Assembly: GCA_003567475.1 (NCBI GenBank)
Contig: PWZL01000045.1
Span: forward strand, 1-53,238
Direction of reading: 5' to 3'
From: Gammaproteobacteria bacterium
Lineage (GTDB): Bacteria > Pseudomonadota > Gammaproteobacteria > Steroidobacterales > PWYM01
Length of the DNA stretch: 53,238 bases
Of the stretch, positions 42,140-53,238 are shown piece after piece. The translations under genes were made by a program, and so were the position numbers. Below the pieces are notes generated by a model, which was not told where the DNA came from, did not search any database, and saw only the letters and a list, made by a program, of their open reading frames with translations. The first letter of the stretch is position 1, and every line of letters begins with the position of its first letter.

Positions 42140-42249
42140 CCTCCGGCCTCCCTGCCGTCCACCTGCGTCTGCAAACCTGACCTGTGGCGCCCGGCCGCGC
42201 CAGACCTCAAACCGGGCGGAGCGCGCGAATTCGTGATCCAGCACAAGGA

Positions 42250-42264
42250 TGAGAATTGTTCTCA
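42250..42264. promoter_or_regulatory. Operator palindrome (ICE/Fur-type) before the Irr-like gene
   Basis: TGAGAA-TTG-TTCTCA is a perfect 6-3-6 inverted repeat. It overlaps the -35 element of the regulator's own promoter. The AGAA-N3-TTCT core resembles the iron control element bound by rhizobial Irr, from memory of that family. Negative autoregulation is the simplest reading. Confidence 0.65.
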
Positions 42265-42284
42265 TTCCATCTCAGGGCTATACT
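42256..42284 (+). promoter_or_regulatory. Sigma-70 promoter of the Irr-like gene, predicted leaderless
   Basis: TTGTTC (42256-42261) and TATACT (42279-42284) are 17 nt apart. The -10 ends only 6 nt before the ATG at 42291, so transcription should begin at or within a base or two of the start codon, giving a leaderless mRNA. No Shine-Dalgarno site precedes the ATG. Confidence 0.6.
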
Positions 42285-42290
42285 CAGCCC

Positions 42291-42719
42291 ATGAGCACTC
42301 CTGGCACAGCGCAGCTGGCCCCGCGGGCGCGAGTGGTTGAACTGCTCGAGCGTCGGGGCGTGACCGCCACCCAGCAGCGGGTGGAGGTGGGGCAGGTCCT
42401 GTTCGCCTGTCCCCAGCACCTGTCCGCCGACCAGATCCTCGAGCGGGTGCTCGCCATGGGTGCCCGGGTCTCCAAGGCGACGGTCTACAACACGCTGAAC
42501 CTGTTCAGCGAGCGGGGCCTGGTCCGTACCCTGTCGATCGATGGCGACCGACAGTTCTATGACCCGACGACCGCGCCCCATCACCATTTCTACAACGTCG
42601 ATACCGGCGAACTGATCGACATTCCTGCCGATGCGCTGGCACTGGCGTCGCTGCCGGCGCCACCGGCAGGGACGGCTCACGAGCGCATCGACGTCATCAT
42701 CCGGGTCCGCAGCAGCTGA
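42291..42719 (+). CDS. irr: Irr-like Fur-family transcriptional regulator
   Basis: A 142-aa DNA-binding regulator: winged helix at residues 10-85 (recognition helix in SKATVYNTLNLF) and a dimerisation domain. It follows rhizobial Irr rather than Fur, with a three-His run HHHFYNVDTGELIDIP (His97-99) and the ending PAGTAHERIDVIIRV. There is no CxxC structural zinc site; the only Cys is Cys40. In Irr the three-His motif takes part in haem-dependent control, so this protein may sense iron through haem. The ATG at 42291 follows the promoter by 6 nt; ATG 42249 lies inside the operator and is unlikely. Nearby haem-related genes are discussed at 50.8-53.2 kb. Confidence 0.85.
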   Translation: MSTPGTAQLAPRARVVELLERRGVTATQQRVEVGQVLFACPQHLSADQILERVLAMGARVSKATVYNTLNLFSERGLVRTLSIDGDRQFYDPTTAPHHHFYNVDTGELIDIPADALALASLPAPPAGTAHERIDVIIRVRSS

Positions 42720-49945: not shown

Positions 49946-50839
49946 ATGCACACCGTCAGATTTTTCCAACTCGATGTCTTCGCCGATCGCGCCGGCTGTG
50001 GCAATCCGCTGGGTGTGGTCGTCGGCGCCGAGGGCTGGTCCACGGCCGACATGCAGCGCTTCGCCACCTGGACGAACCTGGTCGAGACCACGTTCCTGCT
50101 GCCGGCGGCGCGCCTCGAGGCCGACTACCGCCTGCGCATCTTTACGCCACATCGCGAGATCCCCTTTGCCGGACATCCCACACTGGGCAGCGCGCACGTG
50201 GCGCTTGATGTGGGGCGCGTCACCGCGGCCGACGGCCGCCTGATCCAGGACTGCGGCGCGGGCTTGCTGCCGATCCTCGTCGAAGGCGAGGGCGGGTCGC
50301 GCCAACTGTTCGTGCAGGCGCCGCCCGCCGAGGTGGTGGTGTCGGGTGTGGACGCGGAGCCACGGCTCGGTGCGGTGCTCGGCGACCGTCGCCTCGGCCG
50401 TCTGCCGCCGGCCTGTGTCTCCGGTGGGCGACGATGGTGGGTGGCGGAACTGGCCGACGAGGCGGAGTTGAGGGACTGGTCGCCGGACCATGCAGCGATC
50501 CGTGCGCTGGCCGAGGCGAGCGATACGCTGGGGCTGTGTGCCTTTGCCCGCTGCCAGGGGGGAGACTACGAGGTGGCTGCTCGGGCGTTTCCTGCCGGCG
50601 CCGGCATCGTCGAGGACCCGGCCTCGGGCGCGGCCAATGCCCTCCTGGCCGCCTGGCTGCAGCACGCCGAGCCCGAAGGCCCGTTGGCGCGTGGCTATCG
50701 GGTCAGCCAGGGACGGGAGATCGGTCGCGACGCCACCCTGGTGCTGCGTATTGACGACAACGGCATCTGGGTCGGCGGGCAGTCAGTGACGGTCATCGCC
50801 GGCGAGGCCCGCTGGCCGGTTCAGTCCTCGGGCACGTAA
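49946..50839 (+). CDS. PhzF family phenazine-biosynthesis-like isomerase
   Basis: A 297-aa diaminopimelate-epimerase-fold protein. It starts with the PhzF pattern FFQLDVFADRAGCGNPLGVV, has the catalytic Glu47 in NLVETTFLLP, then FTPHREIPFAGHPTLGSAH and the C-terminal half-domain motif GIVEDPASGAANALLAAW. There is no phenazine cluster here, so a small-molecule isomerase of unknown substrate is the fair call. It is convergent with the DUF2149 gene, sharing 19 bp. Confidence 0.93.
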   Translation: MHTVRFFQLDVFADRAGCGNPLGVVVGAEGWSTADMQRFATWTNLVETTFLLPAARLEADYRLRIFTPHREIPFAGHPTLGSAHVALDVGRVTAADGRLIQDCGAGLLPILVEGEGGSRQLFVQAPPAEVVVSGVDAEPRLGAVLGDRRLGRLPPACVSGGRRWWVAELADEAELRDWSPDHAAIRALAEASDTLGLCAFARCQGGDYEVAARAFPAGAGIVEDPASGAANALLAAWLQHAEPEGPLARGYRVSQGREIGRDATLVLRIDDNGIWVGGQSVTVIAGEARWPVQSSGT

Positions 50840-51135
50840 ATCATCCTGCCATCCGGTAGGCGGTAGGCCGTGCCGGCGCGGATGCCCTCGCCATCACCGA
50901 TCTCGCCCGTGGTCTCGTAGCGGGTCAGCTCCTGGCCTTCCTTGATGACGATGCGCATATCGTCCTCACCGGGGTTGGTGATGACCACCACGCGCTCGTC
51001 GGTGAACGGGTTGAGGGGATTGGCGGCCACGATGATCAGCAGCACGGCGATGATCACCAGGAACACGTCGACCACGTTCACCACCGAGAGGATCGGGTCC
51101 TCGTCTTCCTCGAAATCCAGAAACCGGTGGCTCAT
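50821..51135 (-). CDS. DUF2149 membrane protein (HmuT-like)
   Basis: A 104-aa protein: acidic N-terminus (DFEEDEDPI), one transmembrane helix (about residues 16-40, starting SVVNVVDVFLVIIAVLLI), then a periplasmic domain of about 60 residues ending YRLPDGRMIYVPED. This is the DUF2149 pattern, with the topology of an ExbD-like partner. The start overlaps the TolQ-like gene by 4 nt. From memory, DUF2149 genes accompany cobN-like and tolQ-like genes in haem- or corrin-linked operons, including hmuT of Bacteroidetes. Its role as the accessory subunit of the proton channel is inference. Confidence 0.85.
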   Translation of the reverse strand: MSHRFLDFEEDEDPILSVVNVVDVFLVIIAVLLIIVAANPLNPFTDERVVVITNPGEDDMRIVIKEGQELTRYETTGEIGDGEGIRAGTAYRLPDGRMIYVPED

Positions 51136-51620
51136 GCACGACCCTCCCGGCGCTCGAGTTCGTGCAGCGAGGCGAGCAGCCAGCGCCGCCGGACGGTGAG
51201 CACCAGGAAGGTGATCGAGGCGCTGATCAGCGCGATGATCACGGCGGCGAAGGCCACGACGAGATTCTCGCCGACGGCCGCCAGGTCGCCGTCCCCCAGC
51301 GCCAGCAGCGCGGGAGCCAGCGGGATCATGGTGGCCACCAGTCCGAGCATCGGTGCCGTGCGGGTACTGATCCGCAGCGGCTCGAGCAGCTTGAGGATCC
51401 TGAGCTCCATGGCCTCCGAGTCGATCGGATGCCCTGTTGGCGCGGCGCGATACAGGGGGCAGATCGCCTGTCGTCGCGTCGGCTTACGCCGCTGCCAGGC
51501 TTCCACCGCGAAGGCGCCGAGCGCGATGAACGCATAACAGAACAGCCCCATGATGATCAGCAGCACCGGGGTCAGAAACACCCGGGCGATCTCGTACATC
51601 GTCAACTCAAGCGGATTCAT
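51132..51620 (-). CDS. MotA/TolQ/ExbB-family proton channel protein (HmuU-like)
   Basis: A 162-aa membrane protein with one N-terminal helix (about residues 12-35), a cytoplasmic loop and two C-terminal helices: TAPMLGLVATMIPLAPAL, a conserved stretch in this family, then VVAFAAVIIALISASITFLV. It lacks a long cytoplasmic domain, so it is shorter than ExbB (about 240 aa). ATG 51620 overlaps the cobN-like stop (ATGA), and its own stop overlaps the DUF2149 start, so all three are translated as one unit. It probably forms an ion-driven motor with the DUF2149 protein. Confidence 0.87.
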   Translation of the reverse strand: MNPLELTMYEIARVFLTPVLLIIMGLFCYAFIALGAFAVEAWQRRKPTRRQAICPLYRAAPTGHPIDSEAMELRILKLLEPLRISTRTAPMLGLVATMIPLAPALLALGDGDLAAVGENLVVAFAAVIIALISASITFLVLTVRRRWLLASLHELERREGRA

Positions 51621-53238
51621 GCAGCGCTCCGTGCGGCAGAGGATATCGGGGGCCGGCGTCCGCGCCGGGCCTGAGTGAAGGCACCCGCCAGCATCAGCAG
51701 GACCAGTGCCAGTAGGACCAGCCACGCCCGCGGGTCGACCGGCAGCCCGCCGGGCGGGGTGTCCACCGGGGCGAGCAGCGGCCCGGTGACTTGCCGGGTG
51801 AGGGTTTCGGCCAGCGGTGCACCGACGCCAAAGCCGGCAGCAAGGCCATCGATGTACTCGCCCAGACGTCCCGGGATGCCGTCCTCGGCGAGGGCGCGGT
51901 GACGTTCGACGAGATCGCGGAGCCCCTCTTCGCCGGCGTCCCAGTACTCCCGTCGTGCCGCCTCCAGCATGCGCTCGATGATCCGCTGGAGGGCCTCGGG
52001 ATTGACTTCGCTGAACCACTCTTCGAGCCCCAGCGCGAGGCTGTCGCGCACGTAGATGTCGTGAAACGCCGCCCACTGGTCGTCGCGTACGCTGGTCGGG
52101 TCGGTCACCTGCCAGCCGAAGAAATTATTGACGACGTTCAGCAGCTCCAGCGAACCGGCATAGCCTTCTGCGCGCATACCCTCGATCCAGCCGGGATGCT
52201 GATAGCGGCTGCGCAGCTCACCGGCGAGAAAGCGCCCGGCGCTCACCGTGCTCGCACCGGCGGGGTTGCGCAAATTGCTGACGTAGAGCTCGGGGGTGCG
52301 GCCGGTGAGGCTGCGGACCGCCATCGCCATGCCGCCCAGGTATTCGAAGGGGTGATCGGTCGAGAGCAGCCCATGCAGGTTGGATGAGCGACCCAGCAGG
52401 GCCCCTTCGACGCGGGAGAGGTGTTCGGCATAGAGGTTGACCCCGCCCGAGATCACGCCCTGCAGCCCGCCCGCGCCATAGCCGTATTGCATGCGCGCGA
52501 GATAGGCGTCGGCGAGTTCGCCGTCTTCCTCCCAGCCCTCGGTGTCGAACAGGCCGTCCGGGACGCCGGTACCGTAGTCGCCCGGTTCGCTGGAGAACAC
52601 CCGGATGGCCGCGAGGCGCAGCGCCTCGGCCGGCGCGACACCATTGCCATTGCTGGTCAGCCGCGCGGCGAGTGAGCGGGTATTTGCCGCGACGGTATTG
52701 CCCGGCTCCTCCAGCTCGGCCAGGCGCTCCAGGGCGGTGGCCAGCTGTTCGATGAACTGGGAGAACTGGTCGCGGTAGACGCCGGTGACCGAAGTCACCA
52801 CATCCACACGTGGACGCCCGAGCGCCTCGCCCGGCACGATCTCCAGACGGTTGAGCCGTCCGCCCTGGTCCCAGCGCGGCTCCAGGCCAAGCAGGTGCAG
52901 CACCTGGGCCTCCATCACGCCCTGGTGGCGCATCGCCTCCGAGGACCACAGCGAGACCCCGAGACTGGCCGGCCAGTCGCCATGGCGCTCGCGATGGTTG
53001 GCGACCAGTTCCTCGGCCAGCGCGCGGCCCACCTCCCAGGCGCGTGGACTGGGCAGGCGGGCCGGGTCGAACCCGTAGAGGTTGCGGCCGGTGGGCAGGA
53101 TTTCCGGATTGCGGATCGGGTCGCCGCCGAAACTGGTCGGGATATACCGGCCCGCCAGCGCGGCGAGCAGGTGGGCGAGTTCGTCGTTGCCGGTCATCGC
53201 ACGGTCCCAGGCGAGCGCCTGGGACCGTGCGATGACCG
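51617..53238 (-). CDS. CobN-like chelatase (HmuS-like), N-terminal part missing at window edge
   Basis: About 540 C-terminal residues of a CobN/BchH-family large subunit (usually 1200-1400 aa). Visible family stretches are [20 protein letters not shown] and [10 protein letters not shown] near the right edge, then [55 protein letters not shown] and [15 protein letters not shown]. The protein ends with a transmembrane helix ([17 protein letters not shown]) and a basic tail, which true cobaltochelatase CobN lacks but HmuS-type proteins have. No cobS/cobT is present. Context with TolQ-like and DUF2149 genes points to a membrane-anchored tetrapyrrole enzyme, possibly a haem dechelatase. The first 8-16 residues before about base 53214 lie in a fold-back and are unreliable. 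Confidence 0.88.
53191..53238. repeat. Perfect 23-bp inverted repeat ending at the last base
   Basis: Arms 53191-53213 and 53216-53238 are perfectly complementary around a 2-nt loop (53214-53215). The inner arm (53191-53213) encodes normal CobN sequence (AWDRAMTG on the minus strand), so the outer arm is an inverted copy of it. A hairpin ending exactly at the end of the sequence is typical of a chimeric read or assembly fold-back. Confidence 0.9.

Follow-up and report, generated by a model that had tools for sequence, protein, structure and literature searches.

In this analysis, we focus on three genes at the right end of a 53,238-nucleotide stretch of DNA (hereafter the window), which is the whole of contig C77 (PWZL01000045.1) in the draft genome of a gammaproteobacterium (assembly GCA_003567475.1; 3.06 Mb, 102 contigs, 98.4% complete). 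They encode a CobN-like protein, a TolQ-like protein of the MotA/TolQ/ExbB family and a DUF2149 protein, and they form the last three genes of a metal-uptake operon of four, which begins, on another contig, with a TonB-dependent receptor gene. The operon is a further member of the Zur-regulated kind represented by PA1922-PA1925 of Pseudomonas aeruginosa, an operon type that is already known. Its link to zinc is well supported, and zinc is probably its physiological metal. By little over an even chance, we favour a reading of the whole as a Zur-controlled zinc-acquisition operon, in which a zinc complex would be imported through the TonB-dependent receptor and demetallated in the periplasm by a proton-driven machinery. 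In what follows, C denotes contigs of the source genome, G genomes and L individual DNA stretches.

The open reading frames and Pfam matches confirm what a sequence-only reading of the window had described, namely three minus-strand genes joined by two ATGA overlaps, one at the CobN-like/TolQ-like junction and the other at the TolQ-like/DUF2149 junction; CobN and DUF2149 are strong Pfam matches, MotA/TolQ/ExbB a modest one. The window part of the CobN-like protein matches CobN-Mg_chel (PF02514) with an E value of 8e-149 over profile positions 678-1088 of 1090, and the source genome contains two PF02514 matches, which are both halves of one CobN-like gene, the N-terminal one lying at the end of contig C28. 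On the NCBIfam model NF004644, the C28 half covers positions 7-744 and the window half positions 750-1284, with separate scores of 770.7 and 651.6 bits for a cut-off of 1248, while intact relatives score 1437.7, 1461.5 and 1460.1; in two of the relatives (L034 and L028), a single gene of 1310-1311 codons matches both halves. On C28, a gene for a TonB-dependent receptor of 650 amino acids stands 3 bases upstream of the CobN-like gene. The upstream gene, which the sequence-only reading had singled out as decisive, is thus the predicted receptor and not a gene of cobalamin synthesis. The operon order (receptor, CobN-like, TolQ-like, DUF2149) is split over C28 and C77 here and is intact in L034 and L028. 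The receptor gene is the first of the operon, its neighbour being divergent, and a pattern search found no sigma-70-like promoter at the operon start. Hydropathy also shows that the C28 half of the CobN-like protein begins with a hydrophobic signal-like segment and that the C-terminal membrane helix noticed earlier corresponds to a hydrophobic segment, the predicted membrane anchor. The receptor does not name the cargo, since all its NCBIfam scores are below cut-off: CirA is the best at 372.3 bits (cut-off 745), followed by the haem/haemoglobin receptor (246.8, cut-off 316.85), the B12 receptor (217.1, cut-off 599.7) and the siderophore receptor (186.1, cut-off 223.5).

The CobN-like protein was placed in a tree of 49 CobN/HmuS/ChlH-type proteins (short tree search), in which the window type is represented by three intact relatives. 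It sits in a fully supported clade of 24 rows, in which genes for TolQ-like and DUF2149 proteins are found close by, and it adjoins a sister clade that holds most of the Zur boxes described below (support 77, which is not decisive). Separate clades are formed by HmuS of the Bacteroidota, together with three relatives from the window's class, and by true CobN. Joining the window type with either of them was rejected in a 21-row subset under a simpler model, the very small p values being read as rejection and not as exact figures.

The link to zinc comes first from the operon promoter. Upstream of the receptor gene, beginning 44 bp ahead of its ATG, the sequence GTTATATAGTTACG fits the published Zur consensus GWWAYWNNNTWHCR (PMC10393844). 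It is the sole match in the 14 kb of L003, the C28 stretch, on both strands, where 0.09 would be expected. We then considered 43 lead-gene promoters of related modules (from -250 to +60, with starts selected by hand). An exact box occurs in 3/5 promoters of the window type and 4/7 of the sister clade, together 7/12, and in none of the 15 promoters of two neighbouring groups (0/3 and 0/12, L059 of the latter not being in the tree); the remaining promoters give 1/3 for the HmuS type and 0/3, 1/2 and 0/8 for other groups. Six of the seven exact boxes lie 39-50 bp before the start; for each of the seven, shuffled versions of the same promoter do as well in 0.5 to 3% of cases. They do not represent seven independent events, since L110 and L111 are near copies. 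In one relative (G001, stretch L035), the promoter sequence differs and the box is kept at -39. As side observations, the box of the HmuS-type operon L128 lies 24 bp before its receptor and is weak (4.5% of shuffles), and a Zur box precedes the receptor of the divergent locus L121, another lying about 300 bp before that of L072.

The published counterpart of this arrangement is PA1922-PA1925, which consists of a receptor, a CobN-like, an ExbD-annotated and a hypothetical gene, with transcripts increased 147.3-, 122.2-, 44.7- and 56.4-fold in a znuA mutant (PMC4542158). In an electrophoretic mobility shift assay, Zur binds the PA1922 promoter (PMC8531726). This operon is reported as strongly induced by zinc depletion. 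Its CobN-like protein has been presented as a B12 protein or a cobalt protein, and the precise role of the operon, in the words of PMC4542158, 'remains to be determined'. It resembles the window operon in gene order (receptor, CobN-like, ExbD-annotated and small-protein genes) and in its Zur box, a likeness that rests on published architecture and regulation and not on alignment. In the related locus L114, an O-methyltransferase gene is divergent from the receptor gene; PA1921 is listed as a methyltransferase, with a Zur-site value equal to that of PA1922. By analogy with P. aeruginosa, Zur would regulate the window operon in vivo, and the operon is probably switched on at zinc shortage. An occurrence outside the Bacteroidetes, as put forward from the window alone, is not new, since PA1922-PA1925 has the same layout and HmuS-type relatives also exist in the window's class. 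The HmuS-type modules found in this class are L128:3760-12451, which reaches 1082 bits with HmuS (PDB 9d26), L123 and L026.

Zinc-related genes accompany similar sites elsewhere. An 18-base Zur-related pattern, allowing up to two mismatches, has 23 matches in the source genome and 9 in a reversed control. One site on C29 precedes a DUF1826 gene and a ZigA GTPase gene (677.9 bits, cut-off 600), one on C31 precedes a ZnuD-like receptor gene (below cut-off) that a second such gene adjoins, and one on C8 has an ATP-binding cassette (ABC) gene on one side and, on the other, a member of the Fur family that scores best with the Zur model (111 bits, cut-off 167). Neighbours of zinc type are also found at 4/7 sister-clade loci: a CobW-type GTPase, a Fur-family gene with Zur as best model and a ZIP transporter at L115; DUF1826, a CobW-type GTPase and an FtsX permease at L117; and, at L110 and L111, the same DksA-family protein, which has one cysteine of the usual four. 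This Cys-poor DksA-family gene (L110:4007-4541 and L111:3984-4518) is divergent from the receptor gene, the Zur box being common to both genes.

How such an operon would work can be proposed step by step. Under zinc shortage, Zur would dissociate from the box upstream of the receptor gene, and zinc would pass the outer membrane as a complex, through the TonB-dependent receptor. Once exported and tethered by its C-terminal helix, the CobN-like protein would expose its body to the periplasm, bind the complex there and remove the metal from the ligand, in the way HmuS treats haem. Power would reach the CobN-like protein from a proton-driven unit of the inner membrane, composed of the TolQ-like and DUF2149 proteins, where its cytoplasmic relatives use ATPases. 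For CobN and ChlH, these ATPases are CobST and ChlID. The released zinc would finally pass to an inner-membrane importer. Demetallation is proposed because of the signal-like and anchor segments, the HmuS core residues, the zinc-type promoter and the operon's own receptor, and we regard it as evenly balanced; that the CobN-like protein is proton-driven is a more tentative proposal, slightly below even.

The model for demetallation is HmuS, a demonstrated haem dechelatase that releases iron from haem (PMC12583661) and that is proposed to act in the periplasm, the P. gingivalis protein being reported with signal and end helices. With residue numbers and roles taken from the EMBO J. paper on HmuS, the haem ligand His254, His538, Glu577 and the pair Asp1208-His1209 are all present in the window type (as judged in the intact relatives) and in seven sister proteins. 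His538 and Glu577 are also found in CobN (7c6o) and ChlH (4zhj), which belong to the same sequence family but differ from the window protein in being described as soluble and cytoplasmic and in falling into other clades. A neighbouring group of 11 proteins has Asp-Asp and no His254, and three other proteins have Asp-His without His254. The Asp-His pair and His254 each require three changes on the tree, so that they may be old or may have arisen more than once. The resemblance to HmuS seen from the window alone holds for these five positions and for the signal and anchor segments, and fails for clade membership and for the methionine-rich insertion of HmuS, to which we return below.

As for the putative power unit, the TolQ-like profile matches ExbB with 88% probability and the protein is homologous to MotA/TolQ/ExbB; its structure model is poor (predicted local distance difference test (pLDDT) 61, from a four-row alignment). 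Resemblance of the DUF2149 protein to ExbD is confined to its single hydrophobic helix, in which Asn20 and Asp23 are conserved; the best PDB match of the DUF2149 profile, sc-CC-6-95 (8qag, E 2.3e-5), was taken as a chance match. When 17 loci were screened with the window proteins, CobN-like and TolQ-like genes were found together in 17/17 and a receptor in 13/17. Two of the four receptor-less loci, L060 and L071, are cut stretches (the L071 receptor is seen in L027), and L065 and L069 have no receptor match in 18 kb. That the two genes are kept together without a receptor is a mild hint that TolQ and DUF2149 work for the CobN-like protein.

This comparison ties the PA1922-PA1925 operon type to the HmuS dechelatase and gives a testable idea of zinc release. 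In the open-access literature, we found no paper linking the two, the bare pair HmuS and Zur not having been searched. A wider generalization, which we consider rather unlikely, would be a class of Zur-controlled periplasmic zinc dechelatases that demetallate a macrocyclic or porphyrin-like zincophore through a TolQ/DUF2149 proton drive, with sister branches devoted to other metals; if true, zinc would here be pulled from its ligand by a proton gradient instead of adenosine triphosphate (ATP).

Several observations weigh against the reading that we favour. At the promoters, 5/12 lack the exact box (four have 10/11 positions, which 17 to 46% of shuffles reach, and one has 9), the exact box of L117 lies 185 bp out instead of 39-50 bp, and the test as a whole relies on a published consensus, hand-picked lead genes and related promoters. 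Boxes also precede the HmuS-type operon L128 and the divergent L121, so that the box does not mark the window type alone. The 18-base pattern has 9 matches in the control as against 23; inspection of the frames at the C11 and C75 sites found no recognised zinc gene, and the single PF01297 (ZnuA family) match of the source genome has no exact box in the surrounding 3 kb. In the subset of neighbours scanned, no recognised zinc neighbour was found at L112, L114 and L073 or at the window-type loci L034, L035 and L036. According to the review PMC10393844, P. aeruginosa seems to be the only member of Pseudomonas with PA1922 under Zur control, a narrower distribution than the one found here across relatives, and the Pseudomonas authors favour free zinc or cobalt as cargo (PMC10393844, PMC8531726, PMC11761036, PMC8456098). 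Concerning the mechanism, His538 and Glu577 do not tell the direction of the reaction, being common to CobN and ChlH; homology of DUF2149 to ExbD/TolR is not established (hhalign 2%; TolR E 1.0), and its structure model is poor (pLDDT 55, four-row alignment). Finally, where the TolQ-like proteins of HmuS-type loci show Thr-Thr, near a position that is functional in ExbB, that of the window type has Ala-Val, which speaks against the standard proton path, or for a changed one.

The strongest competitor keeps zinc and changes the roles of the proteins: the TolQ-like and DUF2149 proteins would energise the receptor, and the CobN-like protein, devoid of chelatase activity, would bind zinc or hand it over in the periplasm. 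The Pseudomonas authors propose that PA1924 helps energise the receptor, and membership of the TolQ-like protein in the MotA/TolQ/ExbB family fits this. We nevertheless consider it improbable, as the TolQ-like and CobN-like genes remain together in L065 and L069, where 18 kb contain no receptor match, and as the core residues are conserved in the window type. A non-chelatase role is possible elsewhere, in L072 and L121, which do not align at the core residues. These two loci (L072:8306-15674 and L121:3876-10869) carry divergent CobN-like genes with TolQ and DUF2149, and it is the GTHG and Glu577 residues that do not align.

Haem or another iron-porphyrin as the substrate, which the sequence-only reading had proposed, is less probable still. 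The operon would then be a gammaproteobacterial HmuRSUV, and the gene kinds are indeed those of hmuR, S, U and V; the signal and end helices are as in P. gingivalis HmuS, His254 and the Asp-His pair are conserved, and the receptor comes nearer to the cut-off of the haem/haemoglobin model (246.8 of 316.85) than to that of CirA (372.3 of 745). The window type falls, however, outside the HmuS clade, its promoter has a Zur box, and it lacks the methionine-rich insertion, which the EMBO J. paper places at residues 780-898 of B. theta HmuS; in L034, 64 residues with one Met stand opposite HmuS 701-930. On these grounds, haem as the cargo is unsupported. For Met79, a haem ligand of HmuS, the surrounding stretch gave no alignment with the window type, and Arg takes this position in the HmuS relative L128; overall, L034 shares 28.7% identity with HmuS over 857 aligned residues. 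In the published six-gene hmu operon, hmuU is the MotA/TolQ/ExbB gene, hmuT a hypothetical or putative permease gene and hmuV the DUF2149 gene, which corrects the earlier assignment of DUF2149 to hmuT. In the window operon, by contrast, nothing like hmuT separates the CobN-like gene from the TolQ-like gene, and no hmuY stands ahead of the receptor gene, which comes first, next to a divergent neighbour; the rest of the genome was not searched for hmuY.

A role in scavenging cobalt or corrinoids, with cobalt substituting for zinc under starvation, is in our view slightly less probable again. The CobN-like fold would suit it, cobalt rises in the P. aeruginosa znuA mutant, whose authors suggest a cobalt role, and the Trichlorobacter relative adjoins BzaF (lower-ligand synthesis) and TonB genes. 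The Trichlorobacter protein, however, is in another branch, for the receptor, the CirA model (372.3 bits) outscores that of the B12 receptor (217.1), both below cut-off, and the source genome has no CobT and no CbiC match, CobS and other B12 genes not having been searched, which is in keeping with the absence of cobalamin partners noted earlier from the window. The idea that the protein is the true cobaltochelatase subunit CobN of B12 synthesis, as the database name of the matching NCBIfam model would have it, can practically be dismissed, being contradicted by its position outside the true CobN clade (with joining rejected), its signal-like and anchor segments and the lack of CobT and CbiC matches.

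DUF2149 matches occur in 8/117 related genomes (7 over cut-off) and in 20/370 genomes drawn from the class (19 over cut-off), the source genome being counted in both. Of 245 genomes from a different order of the class, 10, among them G267, have an NF004644 match over its cut-off. The class survey drew stretches from 14/19 DUF2149 genomes other than the source (G226, G245, G260, G382 and G388 were left out); NF004644 matches were found in 88 genomes, from which 17 were chosen by hand for loci, giving 20 stretches, and a search of genome contigs with one protein added three loci. The stretch from G025, whose DUF2149 match is weak and below cut-off, contains no CobN-like, TolQ-like or DUF2149 match to the window proteins, and L068 and L069, where the Pfam model of DUF2149 matched, gave no hit with the DUF2149 protein of the window. 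A separate clade (L065-L070, L126 and L127) has CobN-like proteins of 1433-1504 amino acids in which GRHSTYEF replaces GTHG..E, with a TolQ-like gene, a DUF2149 gene that mostly matches weakly, and an exact Zur box in 0/8. On a plasmid of Runella slithyformis (L077), the module lies among hydrogenase maturation genes, hinting at a nickel version, and on one of Trichlorobacter lovleyi (L079), it lies beside BzaF and TonB-system genes, hinting at a cobalt version. From these gene contexts, the metal may differ by branch of the module family.

Table 1. Features of the operon and of the contig end; positions are those of the window unless another stretch is named.
Feature	Position	Strand	Basis
N-terminal half of CobN-like gene	end of contig C28, L003:11935-14256		PF02514 match, NCBIfam NF004644
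CobN-like putative (de)chelatase, C-terminal part, 539 amino acids	51617-53236	-	Open reading frame, open at contig end; Pfam
Asp-His pair matching HmuS Asp1208-His1209	52352-52357	-	Window sequence and alignment of intact relatives
C-terminal hydrophobic segment of CobN-like protein, predicted membrane anchor	51671-51727	-	Hydropathy only
MotA/TolQ/ExbB-family (TolQ-like) protein, 162 amino acids	51132-51620	-	Pfam MotA_ExbB, E 3.2e-6
DUF2149 protein, 104 amino acids, single N-terminal hydrophobic helix, conserved Asp23	50821-51135	-	Pfam, E 4.7e-27
23-base hairpin arm at contig end	53216-53238		Perfect inverted repeat with adjoining bases

The last 23 bases of the window are probably an assembly artefact, since they form a perfect hairpin with the adjoining sequence and turned up in none of the relatives L034, L028 and L035. 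Away from the operon, the window also contains a Fur-family gene (42249-42719) for which IrrA (128.6 bits, cut-off 150) and Irr (118.4 bits, cut-off 170) are the best-scoring NCBIfam models; to our knowledge, an Irr-type gene of this family is unusual in a gammaproteobacterium.

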